This document shows positions 44,765 through 49,786 of a stretch of DNA of 64,000 nucleotides, in pieces. Made by a program: the position numbers and the translations under genes. The notes beneath the pieces were generated by a model. The model saw only the letters and a list, made by a program, of their open reading frames with translations. It did no database searches and was not told the DNA's origin. The first letter of the stretch is position 1. Each line of letters begins with the position of its first letter. Source of the stretch: Chryseobacterium salipaludis (GTDB lineage: Bacteria > Bacteroidota > Bacteroidia > Flavobacteriales > Weeksellaceae); the NCBI RefSeq assembly GCF_022968825.1, contig NZ_JALHKS010000003.1, forward strand, positions 124,001 to 188,000, read 5' to 3'.

Positions 44765-44794
44765 AAAATGCTGATCAAGCGATCAGCATTTTTT
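44765..44794. terminator. Bidirectional terminator between thiolase and DUF1569 genes
   Basis: AAAATGCTGATC (44765-44776) and GATCAGCATTTT (44781-44792) around AAGC, followed by a T-run. Its right edge adjoins the stop codon of the convergent gene. Confidence 0.85.
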
Positions 44795-45248
44795 ATACCC
44801 CAAACTGCCGCAGATGGTGGTCGAGGTGCTTTGCAAACATATTGTTCCACTCCTGCCCGGTCAGTTTACCAAAGGAGAACGACTCTTTTCCATCGAAAGC
44901 GTTGCGGCCCAGTTGCTGAGTTTTCTGAATATAACCCACGAGCCGTTTTCGCTGCTCGTCAAAATCGGGCGTACCCGTAATGCGAAACTGCGGCGCCGTG
45001 GGTGTACTATGCGGGTATGGCTTTTCACCGACTACTTTTTTCTTCACGAAGTTTTTAAGAATCCACTTGGCCAGTCCGCCCACAGGCCGGTGCAATTGGG
45101 GCTCGTACACCATTTCATAGGTTACGCAACAGTGCGCCAGCATTTGTGAGACGTTCATCGTGCCCCATTGGGCTGGAGAATAAGGTCGTAGTCGATTGAT
45201 GCGGTCAATATAGCTTTGCGCTACACTTTTATTAAAGATGTCCTGCAT
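44793..45248 (-). CDS. DUF1569 protein (DinB-like four-helix bundle)
   Basis: 151 residues, all soluble and helical. The N-terminal WGTMNVSQMLAHCCVTYEM segment and the C-terminal MFAKHLDHHLRQFGV, with paired His, match the DinB/DUF1569 superfamily, whose three His can bind a metal. Members include thiol-dependent enzymes, but many have no known reaction. It follows the Crp/Fnr regulator gene by 37 bases on the same strand, so the two may be one transcript. Confidence 0.85.
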   Translation of the reverse strand: MQDIFNKSVAQSYIDRINRLRPYSPAQWGTMNVSQMLAHCCVTYEMVYEPQLHRPVGGLAKWILKNFVKKKVVGEKPYPHSTPTAPQFRITGTPDFDEQRKRLVGYIQKTQQLGRNAFDGKESFSFGKLTGQEWNNMFAKHLDHHLRQFGV

Positions 45249-45285: not shown

Positions 45286-45846
45286 TTATATTTCGCTGCG
45301 GATTCTGCTCAGGGTTTCTTGAGATATTCCCAGGTAAGAGGCGATCATCCCCAAAGGTGCACGCAGGATGATATCAGGATTTTGTTGCATCAATCTTAAG
45401 TATTTTTCCCGCGCCGTCAGAAATTGGAGCGATTCTACACGTTCGGTCATTTGCGTTAAAATACTTCCCAACACAAACCGGCTAAAATTGGCACTTTCCA
45501 GGGATACAGCACACAGCGCTTCAAGCCGGGCGTAATTACAGGACTGCACAGTGCTGTCCTCGATCGCTTCGAAATTATACCTCGTGGGGCTGTCCCGAAA
45601 CAGGGTGTCCGTATTGGCCATTAAACTCCCTTCGGTGTAAAATCTAATAGTTACCTCCTTCCCGTTTTCATAATAGAAAGCGCGCACGAGTCCTTTCTTT
45701 ACGAAATAAACGTTCCTGTTGTACTGATCCGTCTTGCTGATCCGTTCCCCTTTTTTATAATCCACTGTGTTAAAATCTTCGGCAAGAAATTTCTGAATTT
45801 CAGGCTTGGTCCTTAAAGTCGCAGGCAGCACCTCGATCAATTCCAT
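45286..45846 (-). CDS. Crp/Fnr family transcription regulator
   Basis: 186 residues: an N-terminal cyclic-nucleotide-binding-like beta-roll (about 20-120), a long dimer helix, and a compact C-terminal helix-turn-helix ending PLGMIASYLGISQETLSRIRSEI (split at about 164 and 175). The recognition helix carries E-T-L-S-R, the same E-x-x-S-R pattern that lets E. coli FNR read TTGAT half-sites. The four cluster Cys of FNR are missing (only two Cys, about 102 and 111), so oxygen sensing by an Fe-S cluster is unlikely. It lies 187 bases after the exporter operon on the same strand. A perfect FNR-type palindrome lies upstream of that operon. Confidence 0.93.
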   Translation of the reverse strand: MELIEVLPATLRTKPEIQKFLAEDFNTVDYKKGERISKTDQYNRNVYFVKKGLVRAFYYENGKEVTIRFYTEGSLMANTDTLFRDSPTRYNFEAIEDSTVQSCNYARLEALCAVSLESANFSRFVLGSILTQMTERVESLQFLTAREKYLRLMQQNPDIILRAPLGMIASYLGISQETLSRIRSEI

Positions 45847-46033
45847 TAAAAGGTTTTTCGCGAATTTAATGAAAAAGTATGGAGCATAAACATTCTCATT
45901 TGGTCGGAAAAAAGTAACCTTCGTGCAGTTGGCTAGCTCAAACAGTATCTTAAGTGATAATTTTTATAAATTAAAGAAAAGCGGCCGTCATAACTAAAAT
46001 GACAGTTTAAATGCTATGGATGTAATGCGGAGA

Positions 46034-47242
46034 TTACTCAGATTCGGGAATATCTTCTATGGCTATCTCGCTTGTAGTAATTTTATATTTTTTAAATAAA
46101 AAGTGAATTTTGATTTTGAGCGCAATCCAGGCTGCCAGAAAATAAACCCAACCCAAAATGAAGAGATGCAGCAAATATTTCTTAGTCAGAACTGCAGAGC
46201 CATTTTGAACTACCATAATCTTCAGCGCCTCCAGATACGGCGTGAGCGGGATTATAGCAGTGAATTTTTTTATAAATTCCGGCATGGCAAAAGTAGGCCA
46301 CGTGAACCCACTGATAATAAATGCCGGAGACGCAATCACCATCAATACTTGCGTGGCTTTCAGCGCATCGGGGACTAAAATGCTCACCAGCACCCCTAGA
46401 TTGGTTGCGGCGACCACGAAAACGGCTGTAATTAAGAAGAAATTCCACGCATTATCCGGTACTGGAATTTTAAAGTATAAGCTGCACAAGTAAAAGAAAA
46501 GAATATTAAAATTCGCGAACACCCAAATCGGCAGGCATTTGATTGTCATGACAAACACGGCATATTTCTCCTTACCGGCAAAATCGCGTACAAAAGACGC
46601 TCTTTTAAATTCCTCTGAAAAAGAAACTGCCATTGCCAGCAATATGACCTGCTGTAATACAACAGCCATCATCGCGGGCCACATAAAAATGAGATAATTG
46701 CTCGTTGTGTTGAACAGCGTGATGTAATTTGCCTTGAAAGGCTCGTACCGCGTTTTGGCGAGCTCCGCATTCATGCCCTGTTTCTGCAAAGCTTTCATTT
46801 CGGCTCCCGCAGAAAAAGTTCCCAGTGTTACCTGAATTGCCTTGGCGGCGAAATTTGCGGTCAGCACATTGGAAGTGTTTACATATACGTTTAGCTCAGG
46901 GTATTTCTTCTGCAGCATCATCGCTTCGAAACGCTCGGGAATGATGATGACAGCCGCCGCTTCCGTTCTGATGGTTTCGTCCTTCAGGCTGGCAGGTTCC
47001 TCCACATAATTCAGGATGTGCAGCGTTTTATTGTCCTGCAGCATTTCCACTACCTGGTCGGAGAGTGGCGTGCGATCATGGTTCACCACGATTACCGGTA
47101 TGTTCTCCACCTTTCCCGATTTGTAGGTAAAGCCGATCAACAAAGCATAAAAAACCGGCGCCAAAAAGAAAACGGACAGCAGTGTCCTGTTTGTTAAAAA
47201 TAATGTGAACTCTCTTTTCAGTAAATATCTGATCTGCTTCAT
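46034..47242 (-). CDS. ABC-2 type transporter permease (YhhJ/YbhR-like)
   Basis: 402 residues. One N-terminal membrane helix (about 17-36), a long extracytoplasmic domain (about 40-180) and five C-terminal helices (about 190-375), the ABC2_membrane_3 layout. The C-terminal tail is acidic (EIAIEDIPESE). Such permeases export drugs or lipids together with HlyD and TolC. It is the third gene of the TolC-HlyD-permease operon (24-base gap to the HlyD-like gene). No ATP-binding subunit and no second permease are encoded next to it. Confidence 0.92.
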   Translation of the reverse strand: MKQIRYLLKREFTLFLTNRTLLSVFFLAPVFYALLIGFTYKSGKVENIPVIVVNHDRTPLSDQVVEMLQDNKTLHILNYVEEPASLKDETIRTEAAAVIIIPERFEAMMLQKKYPELNVYVNTSNVLTANFAAKAIQVTLGTFSAGAEMKALQKQGMNAELAKTRYEPFKANYITLFNTTSNYLIFMWPAMMAVVLQQVILLAMAVSFSEEFKRASFVRDFAGKEKYAVFVMTIKCLPIWVFANFNILFFYLCSLYFKIPVPDNAWNFFLITAVFVVAATNLGVLVSILVPDALKATQVLMVIASPAFIISGFTWPTFAMPEFIKKFTAIIPLTPYLEALKIMVVQNGSAVLTKKYLLHLFILGWVYFLAAWIALKIKIHFLFKKYKITTSEIAIEDIPESE

Positions 47243-47266
47243 GAGGTACTTTTTTCTGCGTTTTTG

Positions 47267-48226
47267 CTACTTTAAAGTCACATTGGAATTAACGAGAATA
47301 TCCTTCGCTGCTTCTTTATTTTGCGGCACCACTTTAATTTCATAGACCGCCTCTTCCGGTTCGTAGTCCGGAAACGCTGTGGTGATATCCGCATATTTCG
47401 CCAGTTGTTTGATGGAAATTATTTTACCGGATAATTCTTTTTTATTATAATTTACGACCATCTTCACTGATTGTCCTTTTTGGTACTTCCCGATTTTCGA
47501 CTCGGGGATTGTAAACCGGAAGTATGCTGATGCAGGAATATAACCCGTGAATAAGGGATATCCAGCTGTTGCCAGCTCGCCCTTGTTTAGCGCAATGGTT
47601 TCGACCTCCATGTCATTGGTCGCAATAATATATTTTTCAGCGTTGGCGATCGTCGCTTCCTGCAGTGCACCGCGGGCCTGGCTTTCTTGGCCTTGTGCCA
47701 TTTCGATTTTTTCTAAACGTGTGCCCTGTTGTACATCATGCAACTCAGCGTTCACTGCATCAAGCTGGGCTTTGGCGCCTTGGTACTTTGCAAAATATTC
47801 GTCATACGCTTGTGGAGAAAGCAGACTGTCCCGGTACATGTTCTTTGCGCGGTTAAACGATTTTTGTGCAAACTGAAACTGCTGTTGCAGCCCGCTTTGC
47901 TTTGCTTTCAGCTGGCGCAGTTGATCTGCTGTGGCGCCGTTTTGCGCCATTTGCACCTGTGCCCGCGCGGCAGATGTTGCACCTTGCGCCTGTGCAATTT
48001 TTGCAGAAACTTCAGGCACATCGAGGATGGCCAGTGTGTCACCGACTTTCACAGCCTGGCCTTCTTCTACCTTAATCGCTAATATTCTTCCGGTGAGTTT
48101 TGGCGCAAAGGAAACTACTTCTTTTTTCGTTTTACCAACGATATCTCTTTCAGGTTTGGATTCCTTACAGCCCGTCAGGCCAAGCACTGCGATTAAAAGA
48201 AGGGAAGTAAATACTGTATTTTTCAT
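47267..48226 (-). CDS. HlyD family membrane fusion lipoprotein
   Basis: 319 residues. Lipoprotein signal with Cys20 (LTGC), then a biotinyl-lipoyl-like half (GRILAIKVEEGQAVKVGDTLAILD, residues about 48-71 split), a long coiled-coil hairpin (about 80-185, Ala/Gln-rich), the second lipoyl half and a beta-barrel domain (AYFRFTIPESKIGKYQKGQ). It bridges an inner-membrane pump and an outer-membrane TolC channel. It is the middle gene of the exporter operon. Confidence 0.93.
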   Translation of the reverse strand: MKNTVFTSLLLIAVLGLTGCKESKPERDIVGKTKKEVVSFAPKLTGRILAIKVEEGQAVKVGDTLAILDVPEVSAKIAQAQGATSAARAQVQMAQNGATADQLRQLKAKQSGLQQQFQFAQKSFNRAKNMYRDSLLSPQAYDEYFAKYQGAKAQLDAVNAELHDVQQGTRLEKIEMAQGQESQARGALQEATIANAEKYIIATNDMEVETIALNKGELATAGYPLFTGYIPASAYFRFTIPESKIGKYQKGQSVKMVVNYNKKELSGKIISIKQLAKYADITTAFPDYEPEEAVYEIKVVPQNKEAAKDILVNSNVTLK

Positions 48227-48309
48227 GTTTGTATTTTATTTTTTCTTAATGGTCAAGTTTAATTTCAAGGTTCAGAGAGATGAGCACTAACATTTCTTTT
48301 ATCTACGCT

Positions 48310-49716
48310 TTATAGTTTATCGATCTGTAAATTCTGGGTGGATTTCATGAGCTCAATAGCACTTCGTCGCTGATTATAGACCGCGGTTTTCAATTCCAGT
48401 TCTGCATTTTCTAAGTCGTTCTCCGCATCAATCAGTGCAGCGGAAGTTTTCGTTCCATACCGGAATTCTTTTTCCACCTGCTCGAGGCCTTGTTTTGCAA
48501 TGTCGCGGGACTTTTGTTTTAGTTTTATTTGTGCTTCCGCAATATTATAGTTGGTTTTATTGTTTGCCAGATTCAGCTGTAACTTTTTCAGCGCGTCCCG
48601 TTTTTTATTTTCTAACACTTCTTTTTCAATCTTGGCTTTCTCGGTCAGGTGTTTGCCTTCGTTTCCGTCGAATACGTCCCATTTAATACCAATCCCTGCC
48701 TGGAACAGTGGGAAGATCCGACTGCTCGGCAACTCTGCATTCAGTTTTCCTGTTAAACTCGGTACTAATGTCTGGGAAGCATCAATCGCATTGTTATATA
48801 AACCGAAATAGCTCAATGACGTTTGCGCCTGCACTTTCGGAACCCACCATCTTTCTTCTGCTTTAATTTTATACTCGGTGGCGGTGATGCCGTGATCCAG
48901 TGCTTTGATCTCTACCCTATTCTCGATATTTTCGTCAATTATTTCGTAAGTAATTCGCTCGAGTTGTGGCTGGATCGCCGCAAGTCGATCCCGGTCGATC
49001 CCGGTCAGTAAATGAAGCTGCGTGATGAGCAGTTCTTTTTTTCCTTCATATTCCACGAGTTTTGAGTCTAAAGTCGCCTGTGCTAGTTCAATTTTTTTAT
49101 GGTCATAAGGTGTAATGAGCCCGTACCCCAGCGCTTTGTTGGCTGTCTTTCTGTTAATGTCCAACCGTTTTTTCGCTTCATCCAGCACTTTTCCGGATTC
49201 ATGAATGAGCGCCATTTGATCGTACGCTTTTGAGACTTCGGTAATGATTTCATCGCGACTTTTCTCCATGAGCAGATTTTCGGAAATATTTTTTTCGCGA
49301 TTGGCTTCTTTCAGGTATTTGATTTTCCCGCCAGAATACAGCAGCATGCTTGCTTCTGTTTTTGCCAAAGCTGAAATACCTGAAACACCTAAATCCGTAG
49401 TTAATTGGCCCTCGGGGACCATCGCGCCGGGAAAATACCCCGGAATTGCCGGAATGGCGATTTGAGGCGATTTCAAGCGGGCGTTCGCATACAGATATCC
49501 GGTCTTTCCGGAAATTTCGACTCTAGGCAGAAAAATATCTTTCAGCTTTTGGTCGTCTAATTTCGTGTATTTGTTCTCCAGCACTTGCTGGGCCAGGGTG
49601 CCATCATTCGCCAGCGCGGCATTAATAAGTTCCTGCAGGTCCGGCGCTTCCTGCGCAAAGAATGCTGTTGGAAAAAGCAGTAAGAATGGTCCGAACAGAT
49701 TGAACAAAGTTTTCAT
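48310..49716 (-). CDS. TolC family outer membrane efflux protein
   Basis: 468 residues with a signal peptide (1-21, ending FFAQ). Two repeated OEP halves of long helices with beta segments (SQLIYSGGK-like LLYSGGKIKYL at about 123, and WDVFDGNEGKH at about 345) form the trimeric tunnel fold. First gene of the operon TolC, HlyD, ABC permease. Upstream lie a near-consensus -7 box (49742-49749) and a perfect FNR-type palindrome (49771-49786). Confidence 0.93.
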   Translation of the reverse strand: MKTLFNLFGPFLLLFPTAFFAQEAPDLQELINAALANDGTLAQQVLENKYTKLDDQKLKDIFLPRVEISGKTGYLYANARLKSPQIAIPAIPGYFPGAMVPEGQLTTDLGVSGISALAKTEASMLLYSGGKIKYLKEANREKNISENLLMEKSRDEIITEVSKAYDQMALIHESGKVLDEAKKRLDINRKTANKALGYGLITPYDHKKIELAQATLDSKLVEYEGKKELLITQLHLLTGIDRDRLAAIQPQLERITYEIIDENIENRVEIKALDHGITATEYKIKAEERWWVPKVQAQTSLSYFGLYNNAIDASQTLVPSLTGKLNAELPSSRIFPLFQAGIGIKWDVFDGNEGKHLTEKAKIEKEVLENKKRDALKKLQLNLANNKTNYNIAEAQIKLKQKSRDIAKQGLEQVEKEFRYGTKTSAALIDAENDLENAELELKTAVYNQRRSAIELMKSTQNLQIDKL

Positions 49717-49741: not shown

Positions 49742-49749
49742 CAAAGTTC
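49742..49749 (-). promoter_or_regulatory. Likely -7 box of the exporter operon
   Basis: GAACTTTG on the minus strand, one mismatch from TAnnTTTG, 25 bases ahead of the TolC ATG. No good -33 box is present, as expected for an activator-dependent promoter. Confidence 0.45.
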
Positions 49750-49770
49750 CGAAAGTCAACGCACGATTCC

Positions 49771-49786
49771 TTTGATATTTATCAAA
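49771..49786. promoter_or_regulatory. FNR-type operator TTTGATA-TT-TATCAAA
   Basis: A perfect 16-base palindrome containing TTGAT (49772-49776), N4 and ATCAA (49781-49785), the exact consensus of FNR/DNR-type regulators. Its centre is about 40 bases upstream of the start site predicted from the -7 box, a class II activator position. No T-run follows on either strand, so it is not a terminator. Confidence 0.6.

Follow-up and report, generated by a model that had tools for sequence, protein, structure and literature searches.

The perfect 16-bp palindrome TTTGATATTTATCAAA, which precedes tolC in the window (the whole 64,000-nt stretch of Weeksellaceae DNA analyzed here), is very probably the operator of a local class II Crp/Fnr activator that serves the tolC operon, with a fatty acid or another amphiphile as its tentative signal. 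The site, its fixed spacing to the promoter, its conservation, and its co-occurrence with a regulator bearing a particular recognition helix are all directly apparent in the sequences compared.

The palindrome carries a TTGAT-N4-ATCAA core at 49772-49785, read directly from the sequence, and lies in a 171-bp gap between tolC and a co-directional upstream neighbor encoding a 1936-aa alpha-2-macroglobulin-like protein (bMG10, A2M, and MG2 domains). Direct reading finds no TTG or TTTG 17-23 nt upstream of GAACTTTG, the sole -7-like box, which accordingly lacks a -33 partner, as a preliminary description of this DNA had stated. In Flavobacterium psychrophilum, the TAnnTTTG box was measured to occupy positions -12 to -5 (PMC9723704). 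Applying this flavobacterial position rule (PMC9723704) to GAACTTTG yields a predicted transcription start at approximately 49737 and places the center of the palindrome at -41.5, provided that this box sets the start. The earlier estimate of a site about 40 bases upstream of the start agrees with this computed center, and the activator-dependent geometry that it proposed is upheld by the -41.5 center and the missing -33 element. Judged by the -7 box, the tolC promoter thus has the makeup of a class II Crp/Fnr promoter, with a site near -41.5 and no good -33/-35 element.

Table 1 Predicted promoter elements and genes of the tolC region, in window positions.
Feature	Position	Strand	Remarks
Activator-binding site, predicted: palindrome TTTGATATTTATCAAA	49771..49786	.	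Perfect 16 bp; conserved in the genus and in other genera
-7-like box GAACTTTG	49742..49749	minus	Consensus TAnnTTTG, first base not T; predicted +1 ~49737
TolC-family outer membrane factor, first operon gene	48310..49716	minus	Pfam OEP PF02321; TIGR01844 below cut-off
HlyD-type periplasmic adaptor	47267..48226	minus	Pfam HlyD_D23, Biotin_lipoyl_2, HlyD_3
ABC-2 type permease	46034..47242	minus	Pfam ABC2_membrane_3 PF12698; no ATPase domain
Crp/Fnr homolog, 186 aa, proposed activator	45286..45846	minus	PF00027
DUF1569/DinB-like protein	44793..45248	minus	PF07606; usually adjoins the regulator

The operon had been described as a TolC-HlyD-ABC exporter. The outer membrane factor, adaptor, and ABC-2 permease of a tripartite exporter are indeed present, but the operon (46034-49716) contains no ATPase gene, either here or in any of the relatives mapped. 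The DUF1569/DinB-like gene has at most a putative link to the system. In one relative, the permease is split into two reading frames of 249 and 156 aa, likely by a frameshift (L086:4233-5449, G029). A different TolC/HlyD/ABC-2 set (21-29% identity) sits beside the regulator, along with the lipase-like hydrolase, in Moheibacter lacus (L179) and in L252; each has a box or near-box, and the same functional set appears to have been built from different genes.

Within one genome, the short box does not exceed chance, whereas its conservation across species clearly does. The pattern at up to one mismatch is seen 4 times in the window against 4.8 in shuffles. In the whole genome, the 14-bp core occurs at 5 exact places against 2 for a reversed control, and TTTGAY-N4-RTCAAA at up to one mismatch gives 52 hits against 54. 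A genome-wide regulon in the strain itself was sought and not found, the relaxed boxes remaining at control level, and the other three exact TTTGAY-N4-RTCAAA places in this genome have no -7 box at the right distance. An exact match to the full 16-mer TTTGATANNTATCAAA is seen once in the genome, compared to ~0.03 expected from base composition.

A tolC ortholog (62-79% identity) is found in 26 of 36 genomes of the genus Kaistella, and TTTGAYANNTRTCAAA is present 66-75 nt ahead of the aligned tolC start in 26/26 orthologous promoters, which are non-independent samples. Mean information content in these 26 promoters is 1.87 bits per position in the box and 1.76 in the -7 box, compared to 0.87 in the spacer and 0.35 in the preceding 60 nt. 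A genus-wide scan returns few matches per genome and practically none for the control; box matches within genes (e.g., L089, L103, L108, L111, L113) were counted as chance. The palindrome is therefore kept throughout the orthologous promoters of the genus, the outcome on which the preliminary description had staked its proposal, and it is found beyond Weeksellaceae as well.

This conservation also bears on the reading of the inverted repeat as an RNA or DNA structure, for instance a weak terminator or attenuator after the alpha-2-macroglobulin-like gene, or as a chance palindrome. Although the 171-bp gap comes after a gene on the same strand, AT-rich palindromes occur frequently, and the strain's own genome shows no excess, we regard either version as extremely unlikely: the sequence itself is conserved and not pairing alone, the box persists in loci whose upstream neighbor is another gene or points the other way (e.g., L093, L095, L096), its distance to the -7 box is fixed, and its presence is tied to the recognition helix.

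Of 61 related promoters with a recognizable.AnnTTTG box, 59 have exactly 21 nt between palindrome and -7 box, which puts the center at -41.5; several oleate hydratase promoters with TACCTTCG in the -7 position are left out of this count. The spacing spans six gene types (tolC, oleate hydratase, 3-hydroxyacyl-CoA dehydrogenase, hydrolase, SMR efflux, and amidase) and stays fixed although the start codon lies at varying distances in the 61 promoters. In 45 distant loci picked by protein similarity alone (33-43% identity, many Bacteroidota families), TTTGAY-N4-RTCAAA gives 51 matches and its reversed control none. In 40 of these loci, a Crp-like gene lies no more than 700 bp from the box, and 32 of the 35 matches counted have the -7 box at a distance of 21 nt. 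Where distant Bacteroidota homologs have the same helix, the box precedes their neighbor gene.

Such constancy favors class II activation over repression, because contact with RNA polymerase requires a fixed distance and a repressor would not. A Crp-like or TetR/MarR-like repressor released by the exporter substrate is accordingly a very unlikely owner of the palindrome, even though efflux operons are often repressed, symmetric operators are common, and occupancy of -49 to -34 could hinder polymerase. The exact -7 box spacing across unrelated promoters fits activation, as do the missing -33 element and the non-consensus first base of the -7 box; moreover, the co-occurring regulator belongs to the Crp/Fnr type and the identity of its helix predicts the presence of the box.

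In gene maps, nearly all of these operons are followed by a homolog of the protein encoded at 45286-45846; one genome has its operon and its regulator at contig ends, and a few maps stop just short of the regulator. Regulator orthologs (≥50% identity) are present in exactly the 26 genus genomes with operon and box, while the best homolog in the 10 other genus genomes reaches at most 38% (Fisher p 4e-9 for co-occurrence). Across 197 family genomes, exact TTTGACANNTGTCAAA is found in 35 of 47 with the regulator versus 7 of 150 without it (p 1e-21). Four of these seven boxes stand beside another Crp homolog with helix LETLSR, one belongs to a Crp-SMR module, one lies ahead of a fragmented tolC operon, and one is in G019. 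This last box is a perfect TTTGACAAATGTCAAA at the start of a gene for a YfhO-like membrane protein (L110:6180-6195, G019:C3:1284179), in a genome that has no regulator, and a -7 box is absent at the 21-nt distance; in L191, too, a YfhO-like gene is found, here close to the regulator. In other genera, each of the 21 genomes that have the regulator carries the box before an exporter, oleate hydratase, or hydrolase gene, and Flavobacterium covae, F. columnare, and F. davisii likewise carry it.

The glutamate, serine, and arginine of the E..SR helix read TTGA in FNR. Profile alignment pairs GISQETLSRI of the regulator with GLTVETISRL of FNR, so that the protein shares the DNA-binding type of FNR/DNR as far as sequence can tell, with an E..SR recognition helix and a box that accompanies it. 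Among 44 other Kaistella Crp/Fnr homologs, those with a QETLSR[IV]R helix adjoin the box in 3/3 cases, whereas those with other helices (PESLSR, RETLSR, AETLSR, PETYSR, and others) do so in 0/41. Kaistella chaponensis, K. jeonii, and K. gelatinilytica are named relatives whose regulator shares 73-77% identity with that of the window; the search that returned their loci used LGISQETLS among its probes, so that the helix is shared by selection and these loci are of limited value as a test of the helix, though not of the box. Five proteins with a cNMP-binding domain were found in the strain's own genome, and QETLSR is present only in the one at 45286-45846. This protein is likely the binder of the palindrome, and its co-occurrence and recognition helix support its earlier nomination for a binding test. 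A weaker 14-bp core, TTGATTACAGTCAA, follows a homolog with helix AETLSRLR and has no -7 box at the right distance; this second homolog (C1) could bind similar half-sites. The regulator gene's own upstream region (45847-46033) contains neither a box nor TAnnTTTG, and autoregulation is not visible in this strain.

The regulator is a member of the Crp/Fnr superfamily, with PF00027 above cut-off and a cNMP-type effector domain joined to an HTH; its AlphaFold model (pLDDT 92.7) matches CRP/FNR folds at E ~1e-11. PF13545 is not matched because the protein stops directly after the recognition helix QETLSRIR. C103 and C112 are its only cysteines, and C112, which is invariant in 23 close orthologs, could serve a thiol-based signal. 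There is no [4Fe-4S] cysteine set (three N-terminal and one internal) of the kind by which FNR senses oxygen, the alignment beginning at FNR residue 44, and the cAMP-contacting residues E72, R82, and S83 of CRP are replaced by N, T, and R (hhalign). With two cysteines and these contacts missing, the regulator is neither FNR nor CRP in sensing.

The window sequence does contain the exact FNR/DNR consensus TTGAT-N4-ATCAA, as had been claimed, and a class II site is the classical FNR position. As the form of the genus, however, this consensus does not hold. The genus consensus is TTTGACA-WW-TGTCAAA, TTTGACAAATGTCAAA is found in 19 of 26 promoters, and the TTTGAT...ATCAAA form of the window is a minority variant (2/26). 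Since the exact TTGAT...ATCAA form is this rare and the consensus is TTGAC...GTCAA, the full agreement with the FNR consensus of E. coli is partly accidental. A true FNR/DNR site, at which an oxygen- or NO-sensing Crp/Fnr protein would switch the exporter with the mode of respiration, is further disfavored by the adjacent regulator, whose two cysteines come without an N-terminal cysteine cluster, by the other four cNMP-domain proteins, which differ in the helix and adjoin no 16-bp box, and by the lipid enzymes that make up the regulon in sister species. We therefore consider it very unlikely. The suggestion that oxygen or nitric oxide switches the operon is not supported, in view of the two cysteines, the missing N-terminal cysteine extension, and the non-respiratory target genes; no respiratory targets are seen among the box-bearing loci mapped.

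Class II activation by Crp/Fnr proteins is already known as a mechanism type, and the system shares with FNR/DNR the TTGA half-site, the 4-bp center, the E..SR helix, and a site at -41.5 that replaces the -33/-35 element. Unlike FNR/DNR, the regulator has no iron-sulfur cysteines or respiratory targets, prefers TTGAC...GTCAA, serves one or few local targets, and ends its C terminus at the recognition helix. E. coli CRP has in common with it the overall fold, the dimer-type effector domain with an HTH, and class II geometry, but the box here is not TGTGA-N6-TCACA and E72, R82, and S83 are substituted as above. A possible parallel is Listeria PrfA, a Crp/Fnr protein with a non-cAMP ligand that reads the 14-bp palindrome TTxACA-NN-TGTxAA (the PrfA box) and differs from the regulator in phylum, targets, and half-site. 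The closest solved sequence relative is PDB 3dn7 ("cyclic nucleotide binding regulatory protein"; 194 aa, E 1e-33), which has the same short architecture, carries the helix TPEYLSEIR in place of QETLSRIR, and is assigned no function in its record.

From these comparisons we infer DNA binding and activation by the protein at 45286-45846. Its homodimer would receive the signal and, once signal-bound, would bind TTTGAY-N4-RTCAAA centered at -41.5, where it would stand in for the missing -33 element and recruit RNA polymerase to the weak -7 box for transcription of the tolC-hlyD-ABC-2 permease genes. More tentatively, the exporter would remove the inducing signal itself, a fatty acid or another membrane-active amphiphile.

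The ligand and the exporter substrate are tentative assignments, drawn from sister-species regulators that share the box before lipid enzymes. In sister species, the box precedes genes for oleate hydratase (PF06100/PRK13977), 3-hydroxyacyl-CoA dehydrogenase, and a lysophospholipase-type hydrolase (Hydrolase_4), and the lipid-gene clusters with the box end in the regulator ortholog. Three near-miss boxes with one mismatch lie ahead of the same cluster genes and nowhere else intergenic in these loci. The box stands before oleate hydratase in 5/5 genus genomes having that enzyme, whereas the box is missing from nine oleate hydratase genes found elsewhere in the order; a 292-293-aa gene lies upstream of most of these, and the one checked encodes an AraC-type regulator. 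As oleate hydratase has the box only beside the regulator, the box tracks the regulator and not the enzyme. The strain of the window has no oleate hydratase, and the lipid link comes from the sister species.

Because the gene set comprises efflux, oleate hydratase, hydroxyacyl-CoA dehydrogenase, and lipase-like hydrolase genes, a fatty acid or lysolipid/membrane-active amphiphile suggests itself as the signal, at roughly even probability, and the regulon looks like one of fatty-acid or amphiphile efflux and detoxification, not an oxygen switch. The ligand probably differs between regulator branches, since distant homologs neighbor amidase, flavodoxin-like, GyrI-like, and SMR efflux genes. Fish mucus, a host lipid source, causes strong induction in F. 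psychrophilum of genes for oleate hydratases, multidrug efflux pumps, and beta-oxidation (PMC9723704). This co-induced gene set resembles the set grouped by the box, a parallel and not proof; the study named no regulator (PMC9723704), and F. psychrophilum lies outside the locus set used here.

A broader reading, plausible yet slightly short of probable, is that the members of a large Bacteroidota branch of short Crp/Fnr proteins ([QL]ETLSR helix; no wing, Fe-S cluster, or cAMP pocket) each activate their neighbor through a TTTGAY-N4-RTCAAA site at -41.5, and that the window member would be a fatty-acid/amphiphile sensor for an ATPase-less exporter and, in its sisters, for oleate hydratase. Most Bacteroidota genomes encode several short Crp/Fnr proteins that have yet to be assigned a signal or target. 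The open literature searched holds no description of a Bacteroidota Crp/Fnr box of this kind, of the truncated branch, or of the lipid regulon, though one may have been missed. The helix-box code (QETLSR with TTTGAY-N4-RTCAAA beside the regulator and, with few exceptions, 21 nt upstream of the -7 box) allows targets of many of these proteins to be predicted from sequence alone and yields a first testable regulon. The system further suggests a way in which flavobacteria exposed to lipids of a host or plant may switch on fatty-acid efflux and detoxification, and it provides a compact pair of activator and promoter in a phylum with few inducible parts.

The oleate hydratase-hydroxyacyl-CoA dehydrogenase-hydrolase-Crp cluster is 90-98% identical between genera (L105, L107, L109, L184, L248), whereas the exporter-type regulator is merely 50-60% identical between genera, a difference that suggests horizontal transfer of the cluster. 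Two similar 422-aa reading frames flank the cluster in L105. One oleate hydratase is interrupted by an internal stop, with 272 of ~635 aa, and its box is intact (L115:6163-6981, G031:C2). Three genomes from two genera share a Crp-box-SMR (QacC/EmrE-like) unit at ~99% identity (L106:200-1285, L114:5480-6570, L215:3650-4730). It has sharp borders and inverted ends, TTAGCGGC/GCCGCTAAC, resembling an integron attC gene cassette, and the unit as a whole resembles an efflux gene travelling with its own activator.
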